Positions 14,528 to 20,918 of a DNA stretch of 20,918 nucleotides are shown piece after piece (position 1 is the stretch's first letter; every line of letters begins with the position of its first letter). The position numbers and the translations under genes were made by a program. The stretch is from a virus: positions 1-20,918 of IMG/VR virus record IMGVR_UViG_3300045836_000152; one strand, 5' to 3'. The notes under the pieces were generated by a model. The model searched no databases, had not been told where the DNA came from, and saw only the letters and a list, made by a program, of their open reading frames with translations.

Positions 14528-15020
14528 CATGTCGGGAACCATCGGCTCTATCGGATCGGCCGTTTCGCTGGCCAATCCCATGGTTGGCGGCATGATCCAG
14601 GCGGCCGGCGCCCTGCTGGGCGGCATCAACGCCAACGCGGCCGGCAAGGCGGCGATGCGGCAGGCGCGCATGGCGGCCGACCAGGACAACGCGGAAGCGG
14701 CGCTGAACAGCATGGCGCTGTACCGGGACAGCCAGCAACAGGCGGCCGCCGGCTTCACGCAAGCGGCCGGCGGCGGCGGGTTCACCGGTTCGGCCGTCCA
14801 GGCCCTGAACGACTTCAACGGCGAAAGCCTCTTCAATCAGCGTGCGCAGATCTACAAGGGCCAGACCCAGGCCGCGGCGGCGCTGTACCAGGGAGAAGTC
14901 GCCAAGGCGAACGGCCAGAACGCCATGACATCCTCGCTCTTTAATGCCGGATCGTCGATCCTCGGCAGCTATGGCCGGTTTCGCGCCCAGAAGGCCGCTT
15001 CCAGCCTGGGAGGCTATTGA
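14520..15020 (+). CDS. Internal virion protein B-like (T7 gp14-like)
   Basis: A 166-residue Ala/Gly/Gln-rich protein. The N-terminal half holds Gly-zipper-like hydrophobic stretches (SLANPMVGGMIQAAGALLGG), followed by long helices (MRQARMAADQDNAEAALNSM, RAQIYKGQTQAAAALYQGEV). This is characteristic of the gp14 class, which inserts in the outer membrane during DNA ejection. AAGGA lies 6 bases before the ATG at 14520. It overlaps the previous gene by 8 bases and its TGA overlaps the next ATG (TGATG), so the ejection proteins are made as a set. Confidence 0.8.
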   Translation: MPDMSGTIGSIGSAVSLANPMVGGMIQAAGALLGGINANAAGKAAMRQARMAADQDNAEAALNSMALYRDSQQQAAAGFTQAAGGGGFTGSAVQALNDFNGESLFNQRAQIYKGQTQAAAALYQGEVAKANGQNAMTSSLFNAGSSILGSYGRFRAQKAASSLGGY

Positions 15021-17422
15021 TGGCGACGCCGCTTCCCTCCGCGCAGCAAAACTTCATCTCCGGTCAAACCCAGCCGATCGACGCCGCGCGGCCGACAGAC
15101 GGCGGCCTAGGCGCCCTTGCCGAGGGCGTCGACCAGTACCAGCAGGGTGCGAACCGCATTGCCGAAATGCAGGCGCGCAAGGCCGTGGGCGACCTGCGCG
15201 AAGCCTACGAGAGCGGCTACCAGCAGGATGCGGCCGCGTTGACCGTCGACAAGGCCCCGAACTTCGCCACAACGCAGCGCGACCGCTATGACACGCTGGC
15301 GGCCAAGCAACTGGCGACGCTGCACGATCCGCAGGCCCAGGCCTATTTCGCGCAGATGAGCGGCGAATACCGCGGCCGCCTTTTGAGCATGGCCGGCGAG
15401 CGGCAGGGGCAGGTGCTGGGGGCCTACCAGCAACAGGCCCAGACGGCGGCCCAGCAGGCGCGCGTGGGCCTGGTGGCGACCAATTTCCAGCTGGGCACGC
15501 GGACCATGCTGGAACAAGACGCCCAGGGTAACGCGCCGTTGCAGCCAGGCTATGCCGACAGCGCCCTTGCGCGGTTCGACGATCGGGCGAAATCCACGCT
15601 CGATGCGACGCCGGATATCGACAAGCCTATGCTGCAATTGCGGCTGGCCGAACAGCGCGACAACCTGGCGCTCAATCTCCAGCAACAGTCCATCGGGCTG
15701 ACGGAAGAGCAGACCCGCCGCAGCGTGCAGGACGGCCTTCAGGGCATCGTCAACCACGTTAAGGCCGATCCGACGTATCGGGACCAGGCGCTGTTGGACG
15801 GCGGACAGCTGATCGCCACACTACCCGTACAGGCGCGCGGGGCAGTGGCGCAGAAATGGCCCGACACGGTCCTGCAATCGATCGCCGAGGGCATGGTGGC
15901 GCGGAAGGACTATTCCGGCCTCAGCACATTTCTGGACAGCAAGGACCCCCAGGCGCACATGGATGCGACGGCGTATGGGCGATATCTCGACCTGAGCACG
16001 AGCACGGCCGTCGCGGGACAGATGGCACTGGACCAACAGACGGCCGAAAAGGGCCTGCAGAACGAAGTCGCATCGCTCATGGAGACCGGAAAATCCACCG
16101 GGCTCGATACCTCGTCGTTCGTGAAGGCCTTCGGGCCGATCGAAGGGCCGGTGAAGAAGAACGACGCGGACCAGCAGATTGCTGTCGCCACGCGCTATCA
16201 CGACATCATCAAACAGGCCTCCAGCATGTCCGAGGCCGAGTTTGACGCTCAACTGAAGCTCATGATGCCTGCGCAGGACGATCCGAACTATGCCCGCGAC
16301 TTGGCCCTGCAGAAACAAGCTGAGCAACTGGGCCAGCAAATGTTCCAGCGCCAGCGCACGGACCCGGCCGGCAGTGATATCACCGACCCCGCCAGTGCCG
16401 CTAAATGGCGTGGTGCCATGACAGGCCAGGCTGGTTCAGCCCAGGCATGGGGCGACTACACAACGGCGCGTCAGACCCGTTGGGGCATTCCGCAACAACT
16501 TCAGCGCATCTTACCGAACGATTATGCAAAGGCGACGGTCACTGAAATCAACAAGGCCGCGCCGAACGTCAGGGATACGATGTTAATGCAACTGCGCCAG
16601 ACGGTCGATTCCTATGGCCAATATGGCGGACAGGTCCTGAAGGAATTCCAGGACGCCGGCCTCTCTGGGCCTGATGCGGCCGCCCTGCACCTCGCCGGCA
16701 ATGATCCGGCGTTCATGGGCCGCTACGTCCGTGCCCAGGAGGTGACCAAGGGCGGAACGCCGCCGACGAAGGACCAGAAGGCCAATATCGAGCGCGCGGT
16801 GGATGCCGCGTTTGCGCCGTTCCAGCAAACGCAATCCTATTCGACGCAGGGATCGATCATGGCCGACAATGCGCGGCGCGTCGTGGCGACCATGACGCAA
16901 GCGGGCGTGCACGACGGCGAAAGCCCGGAGGTCGCCGCGCGCGAGGCAACGAAATGGCTGTTCCAGGGCGCCCAGCCCGACCAGAAGGGCACCTATCTCG
17001 TGCCGCAGTCGATCCAGGCGGAACAGGTCAAGCGCGATTTCAACGCCGTGCCGACCCCGAACCTGTTTAATCCACACCCGACCGCCTTTGATGCCGTCCA
17101 CATGGTGGGCACGGTCGACGGCGCTACGGCGCTGCGCAACGGCCTTTACGCCACCGTGCGCGACTATGCGCTGGACCCGTCGAAACTGGCGGCGCCGGGC
17201 CTGGAAGCCTGGATGACACCGGAGCAAAAGCAGCAACGCTATGCCAACAAGGTGGCGGATCAGGCGTTCTGGATCAACGGCGGCGACGCCGGCATGAAAA
17301 CGTTCCAGCTGGTGATGAAGGACGAGAACGGCCAGACCGTCATTCCGGTGAAGGACAACAAGGGCCAGCCGATCGTTCGCACCTGGGATCAAGTCAAGAG
17401 CCGCATCACGGGAGGCAAATAG
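15020..17422 (+). CDS. Internal virion protein C-like (T7 gp15-like)
   Basis: An 800-residue, largely helical, Gln/Ala-rich protein with long charged helices and few strands, the profile of the gp15-type ejection protein that builds the periplasmic tunnel with gp16. GGGAGG lies 6 bases before ATG 15020; a TTG one codon earlier is possible but less likely. No enzyme motif is visible. Position between the gp14-like gene and the transglycosylase protein gives the canonical 14-15-16 order. Its TAG is directly followed by the next ATG. Confidence 0.82.
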   Translation: MATPLPSAQQNFISGQTQPIDAARPTDGGLGALAEGVDQYQQGANRIAEMQARKAVGDLREAYESGYQQDAAALTVDKAPNFATTQRDRYDTLAAKQLATLHDPQAQAYFAQMSGEYRGRLLSMAGERQGQVLGAYQQQAQTAAQQARVGLVATNFQLGTRTMLEQDAQGNAPLQPGYADSALARFDDRAKSTLDATPDIDKPMLQLRLAEQRDNLALNLQQQSIGLTEEQTRRSVQDGLQGIVNHVKADPTYRDQALLDGGQLIATLPVQARGAVAQKWPDTVLQSIAEGMVARKDYSGLSTFLDSKDPQAHMDATAYGRYLDLSTSTAVAGQMALDQQTAEKGLQNEVASLMETGKSTGLDTSSFVKAFGPIEGPVKKNDADQQIAVATRYHDIIKQASSMSEAEFDAQLKLMMPAQDDPNYARDLALQKQAEQLGQQMFQRQRTDPAGSDITDPASAAKWRGAMTGQAGSAQAWGDYTTARQTRWGIPQQLQRILPNDYAKATVTEINKAAPNVRDTMLMQLRQTVDSYGQYGGQVLKEFQDAGLSGPDAAALHLAGNDPAFMGRYVRAQEVTKGGTPPTKDQKANIERAVDAAFAPFQQTQSYSTQGSIMADNARRVVATMTQAGVHDGESPEVAAREATKWLFQGAQPDQKGTYLVPQSIQAEQVKRDFNAVPTPNLFNPHPTAFDAVHMVGTVDGATALRNGLYATVRDYALDPSKLAAPGLEAWMTPEQKQQRYANKVADQAFWINGGDAGMKTFQLVMKDENGQTVIPVKDNKGQPIVRTWDQVKSRITGGK

Positions 17423-20401
17423 ATGCCGGTTCCGGGCTATGTACCACAGCCACAGTCCTCGAATGCCCAGGACGACTATAACGCCACCTACGGCCCGACC
17501 TCGGACAACGAAGCGCGGGACCTGTTCTTTACCGGCGGCATTCATGGCTTGACGGCCTCAACGATCAATTCAGCGCGGGGCGCGGCGCTGAACCTCGTGC
17601 CGTCGCCGACGCTGTCACCGGACGCGGCCAACGCCCAGTTCGGCATCGATGGCCATCTGTCGTTCAGCCATCCGATCACGACGGCCGAGGCACAATGGCG
17701 GCAGGAGACCAAGCGCCAGGAGCTGTACGAGCAGGACATCATGAGCCGCGCCGAGGGCGTCAACGGCGCGGAACGGTTTTCGCGCGGCCTGGTCGGCGGC
17801 ATCTTCGATCCGATCTCCTTTGGGGTGAACTTCATCCCCTTCGCCAACGAAGCGCATTGGGCGGCTGATGCCGGCCTGGCGGCGAACCTAGCGAAGGGCG
17901 CGTGGACCGGCGCGAAGTTCGGTGCGGCCTTCGGCGCTGCCCAAGGTGCTGAAAACGCGTACCAAGGGCTGGACTACAATCCGGAAGAGTTCGGCCAGCA
18001 AATCCTGTCGTCAGCCGTCTTCGGCAGCGTGCTGGAAGGAGGCGCCTACGGCCTGTCACGGCTGCGGTCGAACCGCTATGGCGACCTGATCGCGGCCGCG
18101 GCCGCGCGGCATGGGATCAGCGCGGATTACCTGGCCCAGACCATGGGAATCGAAAATCCGCGCGGCGATCCGAACGCCAAGAACCCCCGGTCGAGCGCGG
18201 GCGGCCTGTTCCAGTTCACCGACAAGACCTGGGAAGGCATGGGCGGCGGCGACAAGACGGACCCGGCGTTGAACATCGACCGGGCGGCACAGCTGGCGGC
18301 CCAGAATGCCGATTACATGGCCGAGCGCCTGGGCCGTGCGCCGACAGACGGCGAACTCTACCTCGCACACCAGCAGGGCGCGAAGGAGGCGACCTATCTC
18401 CTGAAGAACCCGGACGAGAACGCCATATCCGTGCTGAAGCGGGCGGGGCAAAAGAACGCGGAAGCCGCCATCGTGAACAATGGCGGCCATGCCGACATGA
18501 CGGCCGGCGATTTCGCCAATATGTGGGTGTTGCGGTTTTCGGGCGAAGCCGCCCGGCCGGAAGGCGCGGCCGTGCCGGCGGAGCCGGACGTGTCGCCGCC
18601 GCCGCCGACCGTTTCGGCCATGGACGAGATCGACCGGGCGGGCGCGACGGTAAAGGCGGCGGCGGATCTCGCGGACGGAAAGGACGTCGACGTCCGCGAC
18701 ATGGTGCAGCAGGCGGTGGAGAATCCGCGCGCGTCGCCTGGACTGGACGAGTCGAGTGCCGATCCGACCATTCCCGGCCGGTTCTATGACGACGACACGG
18801 CGACGACGGTTCGCGGCACCGATATTCCGGTGCGCTATGCGATCGTCGAAGCCCGCGACCTGACCGTCAGCCACGACGCGGACCTGGTCCGCAATCCGAA
18901 CTATCCGGACGAACTGCAACCGCGCGACCGCGACCGCGCCGGATCGCAGGCGCGGCTTTTGCGCATGGAACAGGAGTTCAACGCCAACCTCTTGATGCGG
19001 GATGCCTCCGCGGCCGGCGGCGCGCCCATCGTATCGCCTGACGGCGTAGTCGAATCGGGAAATGGCCGCGCCATCGTCCTGGCGCGCAATGGCGACCGCG
19101 AAACGCCGATCTCGCAGGCCTATCGCGCGGCGCTGAAGGCCAAGGGCTTCGACCCGGCGGGTTTCGACAACCCCATCCTGGTCCGCATGCGGACCCAGGC
19201 CATGACGGGGCCGGAGCGCGTGCGGCTGTCGCGCGAAATGAACACCGATACGTCCGAGCGCTATTCGCCAACCGAACAGGCCATGGTCGACGCCCAGCAG
19301 CTCAATGACAACGACGTGCAGCTGTACGAGGGCGGACCCCTGACGGCGCGGGCCAACGACCGGTTTGCGCGGGCCTTCTTGACCAAGGCCGCGCCGGGTG
19401 CGGAAAACAGCCTGATCGACCCGTCGACGCGGCGGCTGAACCAGGCCGGCATCGAGCGGATGCAGGCGGCGACGGTCGCCAAGGCCTATGGCTCAAAGCC
19501 GCTGGTCTATGCGATCTTCGAGACCTCGAACCCGCAGCTGAAGACGTTCGGCGCTGCGATTTCGGAGGCCGCGCCGATATGGGCGAAGATGCGCGCCCTG
19601 GCGGCAAATGGCGAGTTGGCGGCCGGCGCCGATACGACGCCATTCCTGGTCGAGGCCATGAACTTCGTGCGCCACATCCGCGACAACCGGCTGAACATGG
19701 CTGACGTCATCGACAAGTGGCGCGACCAGGCGGACATGTTCGCCAAGGATGCCCTGTCGCCGGAGGCCCTGGAATACCTGAAGCTGTTCTTCAAGGACGA
19801 AGGCTTTCGGGTGCAGCGCTCCGGCGAGGCCATCGCGGGGGATTTGAAGGATATCGCGGAAGCGGCTATAAGGTCGACACCGGAGCCTAACCTGTTCGGT
19901 GACGTGACGCCTTTCGACGTCTCCGCCCAGATCAACCGGCTGAACGAACGTGCGGCCAGAGAGGAAGACTATGAACCTCAACACCCTGACGGGCCTGAAG
20001 GCGCGAGCGACCGGCATGCGGGCGATGGCGGCTGGCCTGACCGCGATCGCGAAGCGGCGGGCGGCCCTGGAAGCGGCGGGGACGCCCCCGGACTTGTCGA
20101 GCTCGTCCGCCCGATCGAGCGCGCGGATGCTGAACCAAACGGCGGACCAGATCGATCCGCCGACGCTGGGCCAGTAAAGAACGACGCTCAGGCCAAGCCG
20201 AACCCGGCCGAGGCCTACCGCAAGGCGTTGTTCGCCGAGGCCGCAAAAGACCCTGAAATCGCTGCCCTGTACAGGGAACTTGCGCATCTGGAGGCCACGG
20301 ACCCCGGAACGATGGACCATGCGCCGTCGTCCGATAATCCCGACGTCATCGCCGAAGCCATGCGCGCGGCGGAGTTTTGCCTGAGAGAAGGAGGGGCATG
20401 A
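17423..20401 (+). CDS. Ejection protein with lytic transglycosylase and DdrB-like ParB domains
   Basis: A 992-residue protein in the place of T7 gp16. Residues about 150-212 hold Gly/Ala-rich hydrophobic stretches (KFGAAFGAAQG, SSAVFGSVLEGGAYGL) able to enter a membrane. Residues 218-375 are an SLT lytic transglycosylase, with probable catalytic Glu at MGIENPRG (E244) and the AGGLFQFTDKTW segment, to cut peptidoglycan during ejection. After a Pro/Ala linker, 465-830 match the DdrB-like ParB domain of polyvalent proteins: VEARDLTVSHDADLVRNPNY, LQPRDRDRAGSQ, and the key GVVESGNGRAIVL (GNGR 547-550). Such proteins are thought to enter the cell with the DNA and act there. Residues about 850-918 are low-complexity (G, P, D, R) and are encoded over the nested gene 19971-20177. 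The last 75 residues look like normal coding again. Confidence 0.88.
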   Translation: MPVPGYVPQPQSSNAQDDYNATYGPTSDNEARDLFFTGGIHGLTASTINSARGAALNLVPSPTLSPDAANAQFGIDGHLSFSHPITTAEAQWRQETKRQELYEQDIMSRAEGVNGAERFSRGLVGGIFDPISFGVNFIPFANEAHWAADAGLAANLAKGAWTGAKFGAAFGAAQGAENAYQGLDYNPEEFGQQILSSAVFGSVLEGGAYGLSRLRSNRYGDLIAAAAARHGISADYLAQTMGIENPRGDPNAKNPRSSAGGLFQFTDKTWEGMGGGDKTDPALNIDRAAQLAAQNADYMAERLGRAPTDGELYLAHQQGAKEATYLLKNPDENAISVLKRAGQKNAEAAIVNNGGHADMTAGDFANMWVLRFSGEAARPEGAAVPAEPDVSPPPPTVSAMDEIDRAGATVKAAADLADGKDVDVRDMVQQAVENPRASPGLDESSADPTIPGRFYDDDTATTVRGTDIPVRYAIVEARDLTVSHDADLVRNPNYPDELQPRDRDRAGSQARLLRMEQEFNANLLMRDASAAGGAPIVSPDGVVESGNGRAIVLARNGDRETPISQAYRAALKAKGFDPAGFDNPILVRMRTQAMTGPERVRLSREMNTDTSERYSPTEQAMVDAQQLNDNDVQLYEGGPLTARANDRFARAFLTKAAPGAENSLIDPSTRRLNQAGIERMQAATVAKAYGSKPLVYAIFETSNPQLKTFGAAISEAAPIWAKMRALAANGELAAGADTTPFLVEAMNFVRHIRDNRLNMADVIDKWRDQADMFAKDALSPEALEYLKLFFKDEGFRVQRSGEAIAGDLKDIAEAAIRSTPEPNLFGDVTPFDVSAQINRLNERAAREEDYEPQHPDGPEGASDRHAGDGGWPDRDREAAGGPGSGGDAPGLVELVRPIERADAEPNGGPDRSADAGPVKNDAQAKPNPAEAYRKALFAEAAKDPEIAALYRELAHLEATDPGTMDHAPSSDNPDVIAEAMRAAEFCLREGGA
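19971..20177 (+). CDS. Nested 68-aa gene inside the ejection-protein gene
   Basis: A 68-residue ORF, +1 relative to the long frame, starting MNLNTLTGLKARATGMRAMA and ending QIDPPTLGQ. GAGG lies 6 bases before the ATG, an ideal ribosome site. By hand count 62 of its 68 codons end in G or C, against 42 of 68 for the same stretch read in the long frame, whose product there is low-complexity. The peptide is a basic, Ala-rich helix (AIAKRRAALEAAG) followed by a Ser-rich linker and a short tail. It could interact with membrane, DNA or the virion proteins around it; the function is unknown. The long frame stays open throughout, so both proteins could be made from the same DNA. Confidence 0.65.
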   Translation: MNLNTLTGLKARATGMRAMAAGLTAIAKRRAALEAAGTPPDLSSSSARSSARMLNQTADQIDPPTLGQ

Positions 20402-20616
20402 TGCCTAAAGCTGCCTTGAAAGCCGTCGCGACGCCAGAACCCATCGCCAACAGCTGTTCGACCTGCGTCCACTGGATCAAGGGCGAATGCCGCCGCCTGC
20501 CGCCGCATTTCGCGGCGCTGGGAAACGGCAGCTACTCGACCCAGACGGACCGCAAAGGCGCGTGGCCGATCACGCAGCGCACGGATTGGTGCGGGGAACA
20601 CAAGACCAATGGCTGA
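20401..20616 (+). CDS. Small Cys-rich phage protein (CxxC...WCGE type)
   Basis: A 71-residue protein with a likely zinc site: CSTCVHW (C19, C22), C30 in GECRRLPP, and C64 in DWCGEH. The layout CxxCxxW, CxRxPP, P.T...DWCGE is one I recognise from many small phage proteins of unknown function. The start at 20401 is favoured because GGAGG is 6 bases upstream; an ATG at 20398 is only 3 bases from it and would overlap the long gene's stop as ATGA. Its stop overlaps the next gene by 8 bases. Confidence 0.75.
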   Translation: MPKAALKAVATPEPIANSCSTCVHWIKGECRRLPPHFAALGNGSYSTQTDRKGAWPITQRTDWCGEHKTNG

Positions 20617-20918
20617 TGCCCGCGCCTGTTACGGCCCGATCCGCGCAGCTACCAAGGGCGCGTTCAACGACGATGAGATTGAGGCCACCCTTGATCGTCT
20701 TATTGCCCGCAAGGCCCGGCTGAAAAGCCAAGTTCCGGGCTTAGACGACAAGGAAGCCATTCGGCAGGCGGCGCGCGAGGTCGGCCTCGAGGAAATGAAA
20801 CGCGGACTGATCAGCCAGCGGGCGAAGGCTTATGGCGAGATCGCCAAGAAAAACCGCCTGCAGATGTACAGCGCCATGAGCGGCACGGCGGCGGACAAGC
20901 TGGATGCCATGACGGTTG
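20609..20918 (+). CDS. Start of a further long helical protein (partial)
   Basis: An open frame from ATG 20609 to the window end, 103 complete codons, no stop. It begins MADARACYGPIRAATKGAFN and continues as charged amphipathic helices (DRLIARKARLKSQVPGLDDK, REVGLEEMKRGLISQRAKAY). It overlaps the previous stop by 8 bases (ATGGCTGA). The helical N-terminus and its place after a ParB-containing ejection protein suggest another large internal virion or polyvalent protein, but the conserved domains would lie outside the window. The coding call is good; the function is inferred from position only. Confidence 0.65.
   Translation, partial: MADARACYGPIRAATKGAFNDDEIEATLDRLIARKARLKSQVPGLDDKEAIRQAAREVGLEEMKRGLISQRAKAYGEIAKKNRLQMYSAMSGTAADKLDAMTV

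Follow-up and report, generated by a model that had tools for sequence, protein, structure and literature searches.

Does a short open reading frame (ORF) lying wholly inside a virion-protein gene, in another frame, encode a protein of its own, and, if so, what becomes of the protein that it interrupts? The question is raised by the IMG/VR virus record IMGVR_UViG_3300045836_000152, analyzed here over its whole length of 20,918 bases ("the window"), in which a 68-codon ORF at positions 19971–20177 (plus strand) lies in frame +1 inside a 992-amino-acid (aa) ORF (17423–20401, plus strand) for a putative epsilon15 gp16-like internal virion or ejection protein. The original prediction, made from the letters of the window, was that this ORF is a dual-coding and probably undescribed phage gene of the DNA-ejection cluster, with the short frame selected and the long frame tolerating whatever results. 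Comparison with relatives, from which the decisive proof comes, indicates that 19971–20177 is very probably a real protein-coding gene, read in frame +1 and under selection at the protein level.

Composition of the nested reading frame

The nested ORF runs from an ATG at 19971–19973 to a TAA stop at 20175–20177 and is preceded, after a 6-nt spacer, by a Shine-Dalgarno (SD)-like GAGG read from the sequence at 19961–19964 (plus strand), exactly as first described; frame +1 is open only from 19944, 27 nt before the ATG, with a stop just upstream. The predicted counts of codons ending in G or C (GC3), 62 of 68 in the short frame vs. 42 of 68 in the long frame, are also exact, but they are weaker evidence than they sound: because short-frame third positions are long-frame first positions, a high short-frame GC3 is on its own no proof of coding, being in part just another view of the D/G/P/R/E/A-rich composition that the long frame has there. 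Within the ORF, the short frame has a GC content at codon positions 1/2/3 of 0.63/0.62/0.91 and the long frame one of 0.91/0.63/0.62; upstream of it, the enclosing gene has 0.67/0.48/0.83 in its own frame. A codon-usage score trained on other genes, with the tested gene excluded, is a better test than GC3: over the nested ORF, the short frame scores +33.0 and the long frame −8.1. Among 50-codon stretches taken from 12 genes of the window, 6 of 900 score higher in a non-annotated frame, and all 6 start between 19943 and 20018.

Relatives carry the same short frame behind the DdrB domain

Direct searches were uninformative: tblastn with the 68-aa protein gave no match in 50,697 phage records, neither a pattern scan of viral contigs with the same protein nor a scan with the tail protein gave one, near DNA relatives of the window were not found in the phage collection, and the nested-core alignment was too variable for use as a scan query. 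Relatives were reached through the DdrB-like ParB domain (PF18763) of the enclosing protein (aa 464–590, coding region 18812–19192, plus strand), whose match (E = 1.3e-25) has 90.3 bits and is above the curated cut-off of 27.6. A profile-guided scan with the DdrB region yielded 80 viral loci and 61 genome loci, many of which have a short ORF in frame +1 behind the DdrB region with a shared two-helix pattern, its core being approximately LLAxTFDRLA, a loop, and then A..L..LA.KL. When a profile of 13 nested ORFs was run against six-frame translations, significant matches fell only in frame +1 at the place following DdrB, as did weak matches outside the training set (L024–L026 and L055), and an extended profile then recovered L029, L044, and an Acinetobacter plasmid (L152) in the same frame and at the same place.

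The arrangement was then put to a held-out test, in which a profile built beforehand was run against 47 further contigs from a second scan (7,242 six-frame segments) that a check had cleared of sequence shared with the first set in the tested region. All 14 matches with E < 0.01 (best 1.2e-11) lie in frame +1 relative to the DdrB match, starting −328 to +26 nt from its end, and the next-best matches are scattered and have E > 1; some of the 14 are close kin (e.g., L188 and L189), so that they amount to fewer than 14 independent events.

Brevundimonas sp. A19_0 carries a prophage (L139) with a relative, and among 390 genomes from the family to which the Brevundimonas host belongs the closest relative, L164, was found; it is 52% identical to the window over the C-terminal region of the long frame. 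Its frame +1 encodes MALNSSQMRAEGLRAMADGFQRIAQRRAKMPDPDLSPMQAKAAEKRLRALAEQLSPATPPPPKNP, which is 39% identical over 56 aa to the 68-aa protein of the window (E = 1e-9, for that single comparison). It is through L164 that membership of the window in the two-helix core family is established; by profile without L164 the membership is only weak, and the placement of the window peptide by MAFFT was uncertain before L164 was found.

Selection on the short frame, and on the long one

Peptide similarity was set against a null in which the long-frame protein is kept and its codons are shuffled among synonyms, the profile excluding the tested locus and its close kin. At 13 of 19 loci, none of 500 such reshuffles matches the profile score of the real short-frame peptide. 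In the direct comparison of the window with L164, the short frame scores 99 against a null with mean 35.5, standard deviation 7.6, and maximum 62 (0/400), whereas the long frame over the overlap scores 47 against 34.1 and is barely above its null (25/400). On these comparisons, the similarity of the nested peptides is not a shadow of the long protein, L164 has a clear homologue of the 68-aa protein, and, given the contrast between 0/400 and 25/400, the short frame is the better conserved frame of the window.

The first half of the predicted asymmetry, a selected short frame, is borne out by this result, but the long frame is constrained as well. The C-terminal tail of the long protein (20178–20401, plus strand) is conserved in alignments of relatives, and helices resume there in the structural model described below; because this part is conserved in frame among relatives, the long frame is real on both sides of the nested ORF and resumes as real coding sequence after it. 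Over the overlap itself, the long frame is also above its own null in several pairs, e.g., L024–L152 and L011–L012. Protein-level selection is accordingly seen in both frames, its long-frame part being weak for the window–L164 overlap.

Substitutions were counted in both frames, as the original prediction had proposed. Differences per codon at long-frame positions 1/2/3 are 0.278/0.191/0.168 in the nested region and 0.161/0.125/0.354 upstream, so that within the ORF the differences move away from the third positions of the long frame (chi2 = 139, p = 7e-31) in counts taken over consecutive pairs within groups of relatives, with some sequences shared between pairs and with an alignment by short-frame peptide that slightly favors the short frame. 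Since shared pairs and peptide-guided alignment affect the pooled counts, the cleanest case is the ungapped pair L152–L178, with 16/5/2 substitutions at long-frame positions 1/2/3 inside the ORF and 19/17/93 upstream (p = 3e-9) and a nonsynonymous/synonymous ratio (pN/pS) of 0.16 in the short frame vs. 3.9 in the long frame. The window–L164 pair alone shows the positional shift with p = 0.004.

Several results weigh on the other side. The two-frame pN/pS ratio, which separates the frames so clearly for L152–L178, does not do so for window–L164 (0.77 vs. 0.81), a pair that is too diverged. In the leave-group-out reshuffle test without L164, the window is weak, 93 of 500 reshuffles being as good; a trimmed profile gives 11/1000, but a subset profile gives 459/1000. 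L018, L049, and L016 are weak or unclear members in the same test. Finally, the openness of the frame is unremarkable: 396 of 500 synonymous reshuffles of the window retain an open reading across the 68 codons. The last point fits the view that the ORF is a by-product of composition, that is, that in a GC-rich phage a G/C-rich stretch encoding a D/G/P/R-rich linker would be open and rich in GC3 by chance, and it is known that composition favors long phase-1 overlaps, which rise with GC content (PMC2542354). Composition does not, however, predict peptide similarity beyond that of the reshuffles, held-out profile matches confined to frame +1 at one place, or substitutions shifting away from long-frame third positions, and we regard a by-product of this kind as very improbable.

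Distribution of the nested family

A tree of 180 DdrB-like sequences was labeled for the nested profile at E < 0.001, which 37 rows carry. Loss of the short frame by homologues, put forward as the outcome that would speak against the gene, is not seen in the window's clade: 16 of its 17 rows carry the profile, and the exception, L165, has a diverged ORF at the site. In a second clade, to which giant proteins reaching nearly 4,000 aa belong, 20 of 25 rows carry it; the last of the 37 is L049, and in a neighboring group of the tree none of 57 rows does. The nested label needs 8 changes on the tree vs. 33.8 for shuffled labels, a distribution that one or two old origins followed by losses would fit. 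On the other side, many DdrB-like genes, and most of those in the tree, have no nested ORF, among them P1 ddrB and the genes of the phages Piluca and TPWB-05.

Nested genes occur in Caulobacteraceae and Rhizobiaceae prophages, in many IMG/VR contigs, and in one Acinetobacter plasmid, within parents of very different architecture (from about 1,000 aa up to nearly 4,000), and a whole-record search found exactly one copy, at the nested site, in each of 18 of 18 records. The predicted location in a DNA-ejection cluster is too narrow for the family, which also sits in giant polyvalent-type proteins and in the plasmid. The same distribution bears on the idea that compensating frameshift errors or mutations mimic nesting and that the true long protein reads frame +1 here. 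Codon usage in the window would suit this idea, since the stretch in which it favors frame +1 is confined to 19943 to about 20170, after which the long frame is favored again; the idea is contradicted by the recurrence of the arrangement in dozens of independent contigs, prophages, and one plasmid and by the stop that ends the short frame inside the long gene, and it is the least probable of all the explanations considered.

On the plasmid, pANC7919.1, the parent is a giant gene annotated as "PLxRFG domain-containing" (L152:1265–9059), and the nested ORF (L152:5097–5249) is absent from the gene table. A DdrB-like gene in an Oscillospiraceae (Bacillota) genome has a frame +1 ORF at the same place (L136:1868–2086; profile E about 0.04–0.14); if this ORF is homologous, the nested family extends beyond Pseudomonadota. 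In the genome G669, two stand-alone ORFs, L250:1474–1902 (minus strand) and L251:1339–1647 (plus strand), of 58 and 74 aa from their likely ATGs, match the nested-family profile with per-genome E values of 3e-7 and 7e-7. Going by names that come from reading the sequence, one of them overlaps the last part of a nuclease-like ORF and the other lies between recombinase-like and Toprim-like ORFs. They have a similar helix pattern (LFARVFERQA...KLAAKARELA) but, unlike the nested family, stand alone with no DdrB-like gene around them, and they are possible non-overlapping relatives of it.

Start sites and mode of translation

The start signal of the window recurs among its relatives. GAGG also precedes the homologous ATG in L164, and in L189, L194, L199, and L211, a group in which most nested proteins begin MTN..AK.PKP.SNKASSE, the start is GAGG followed by 5 nt and ATG; L029 has AGGAG ahead of its ATG, L024 has GAGAGG, and L152 has a TTG with AAGAGG at the homologous place. 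Judging from these start codons, the SD sites, and the upstream stops, the nested protein is probably made by internal initiation: ribosomes would start anew inside the long message, and both proteins would be translated from one late mRNA.

Alternatively, ribosomes on the long gene might shift frame, giving a parent protein with an alternative C terminus that ends in the +1 peptide, and no free small protein. Entry by frameshifting would be possible in L011–L013, L017, and L176, where frame +1 is open well upstream of the core. Yet starts with an SD site recur at the head of the conserved peptide, and frame +1 opens just before the ATG, only 3 nt before it in L044 and 9 nt in L024 and at the distance given above in the window, leaving little room for a slip site; for these two reasons, internal initiation is favored over frameshifting. 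A shared slippery sequence was not seen, though no systematic search for one was made, and all in all we find a frameshifted product quite improbable.

The weak point of internal initiation is a set of members of the window's own clade (L011, L013, L015, L016, and L091) that have no ATG with a strong SD site just before the core; in these, by their sequences, a start further upstream must serve. The best, if uncertain, candidate in L011–L014, L018, L091, L173, L176, and L214, which belong to the same clade, is likewise further upstream, an ATG after GGAG within the codons of an LFG motif.

In L011–L014, L018, L173, L176, and L214, the codons of the conserved motif LFG(E/D/A)TPD create GGAG and then ATG in frame +1. 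The motif is a possible second kind of nested start, embedded in a conserved protein motif.

Predicted structure and possible role

Structure was predicted with one plasmid row left out of the input. An AlphaFold2 model from 27 nested sequences predicts a helical hairpin (helices 3–35 and 44–61; mean predicted local distance difference test [pLDDT] 79.5, predicted template modeling score 0.55). When it was compared with viral models, none matched with E < 0.001, as is to be expected of a hairpin. In an AlphaFold2 model of the C-terminal half of the long protein, residues 411–494 have pLDDT < 50 and correspond to 19970–20221 of the window (plus strand), almost exactly the nested gene; this supports a long frame that is disordered, as a linker, over the overlap, although the shallow alignment there may partly cause the low pLDDT and so tells against that view. 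Most nested proteins are basic and the opposing long frame is mostly acidic, with net charges of +4 and −9 in the window. Taken together, the models and the comparisons have the nested gene overprinted on a linker located behind the DdrB module in an ejection-type virion protein; the small protein would fold as a helical hairpin, and the long protein would remain disordered over the same bases.

What the small protein does can be proposed only tentatively. Because the nested gene follows the DdrB module through unrelated parent architectures, we suggest that its product may be a partner of its own parent's DdrB module, binding it during assembly, packaging, or ejection. The main rival, which we rate as slightly more doubtful still, is that the small basic helical protein is an independent effector, packaged and injected with the parent and binding nucleic acid or a host defense protein, and is nested merely to share the late message. 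The net positive charge of most members and the possible stand-alone relatives in the alphaproteobacterial genome G669 would suit an effector, as would the finding of P1 DdrB in the phage head, reported in a paper on polyvalent proteins (PMC5512222), by which the parent type can be packaged and injected. The single copy per record, always at the nested site, suggests instead a tie to the parent, and no family of any kind matches the nested peptides.

A tie to the parent might also take the form of antagonism: in the manner of a built-in immunity protein, the small protein might keep the DdrB-ParB domain, which is putatively a nuclease or acts on nucleotides, masked until ejection takes place. 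The nested gene tracks the DdrB module across very different parents, as masking would have it, but many DdrB-like genes do without the nested gene, and the activity of DdrB-ParB is itself a prediction (PMC5512222); we consider masking distinctly unlikely. The partnership with the DdrB module may be part of a larger picture, to which we give no more than the same tentative credence: an old overprinted family, missed by all annotation checked, that accompanies the DdrB module in injected phage and plasmid proteins, whose product binds and controls the module, and for whose sake the disordered linker chiefly exists, its DNA encoding the partner.

The enclosing gene and its neighbors

Outside the DdrB domain, the enclosing protein has PHROG matches at aa about 223–370 to a transglycosylase and to an internal virion protein with endolysin domain, marking a lytic-transglycosylase-like domain (coding region 18089–18532, plus strand); the Pfam Transglycosylas match is weak (E = 0.036). 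The annotated genes closest to it are those of Acinetobacter phage TPWB-05 and Alcaligenes phage Piluca. CPT_Piluca_047, the tblastn match in Piluca, is annotated as epsilon15 gp16-like and is flanked by gp15-like and gp17-like genes. Similarity to the epsilon15 gp16-like protein is 30–33% over about half of the protein, and the gene order agrees, with an extra 71-aa gene following in the window. The Piluca and TPWB-05 proteins stop ~60 aa past the matched region, the window protein is ~150 residues longer, and the nested ORF is located in this extra linker.

By gene order relative to Piluca, the preceding gene (15017–17422, plus strand; 801 aa) occupies the position of epsilon15 gp15, and profile searches with its product gave no match. 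The start of the next large gene (20609–20918, plus strand), at the position of the gp17-like pilot protein, is truncated where the contig stops. The small gene (20401–20616, plus strand, or from 20398, there being an ATG at either position) lies between the gp16-like and gp17-like genes; its ~71-aa product has cysteines (CSTCVHW...CRR...WCGEHK) and a weak zinc-finger profile match. Piluca lacks a gene at this site, and the one in TPWB-05 looks different. Scans with Rfam and for promoters and terminators produced no match above chance level.

A new family of a known kind

The expectation of a dual-coding and probably undescribed gene has held up: relatives keep the short frame, selection on it is seen, and searches of Pfam, PHROGs, and NCBIfam with nine nested peptides gave chance-level matches only and no fitting family. 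An open-literature search, which was not complete, returned no description of the nested family. On the evidence of the sequences, the family is conserved and undescribed, with most of its proteins having 50–70 aa. It is a new family, and the embedded +1 gene as a general kind is already known, the precedent being Rz1 within Rz of phage lambda, the two-component spanins (PMC6139136). Like the nested gene, Rz1 is small, lies entirely within a larger phage gene that serves the same late process, is read in frame +1 relative to it, and usually escapes annotation. The products differ, Rz1 being an outer-membrane lipoprotein encoded in a lysis gene and the nested protein a predicted soluble helical hairpin encoded in a virion- or ejection-type gene. 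The 68-aa protein has no cysteine and hence no lipobox, and so does not have the signal sequence with lipobox cysteine that marks an Rz1-type o-spanin.

The enclosing gene belongs with the DdrB-like ParB polyvalent or virion proteins and probably with the epsilon15 gp16-like proteins. Late phage genes in which DdrB-ParB is fused to a lysozyme domain are described in the polyvalent-protein paper, and the passages found there say nothing of a nested gene (PMC5512222). Phage P1 has an annotated ORF inside ddrB, iddB (L008:5462–5860), which resembles the nested gene in this respect but lies on the opposite strand, within the DdrB-matching part, and overlaps the conserved DdrB region; being antisense to ddrB, it was dropped as a parallel.

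Conserved embedded-gene families outside phage lysis genes seem rarely documented. Here, such a family appears to lie concealed within virion and polyvalent proteins of a widespread class, and it predicts a new small phage protein to be sought in virions and ribosome profiles. What looks like a linker in a protein can be the shadow of a second gene and itself only weakly selected, and this alters the way in which proteins of this kind are to be read.

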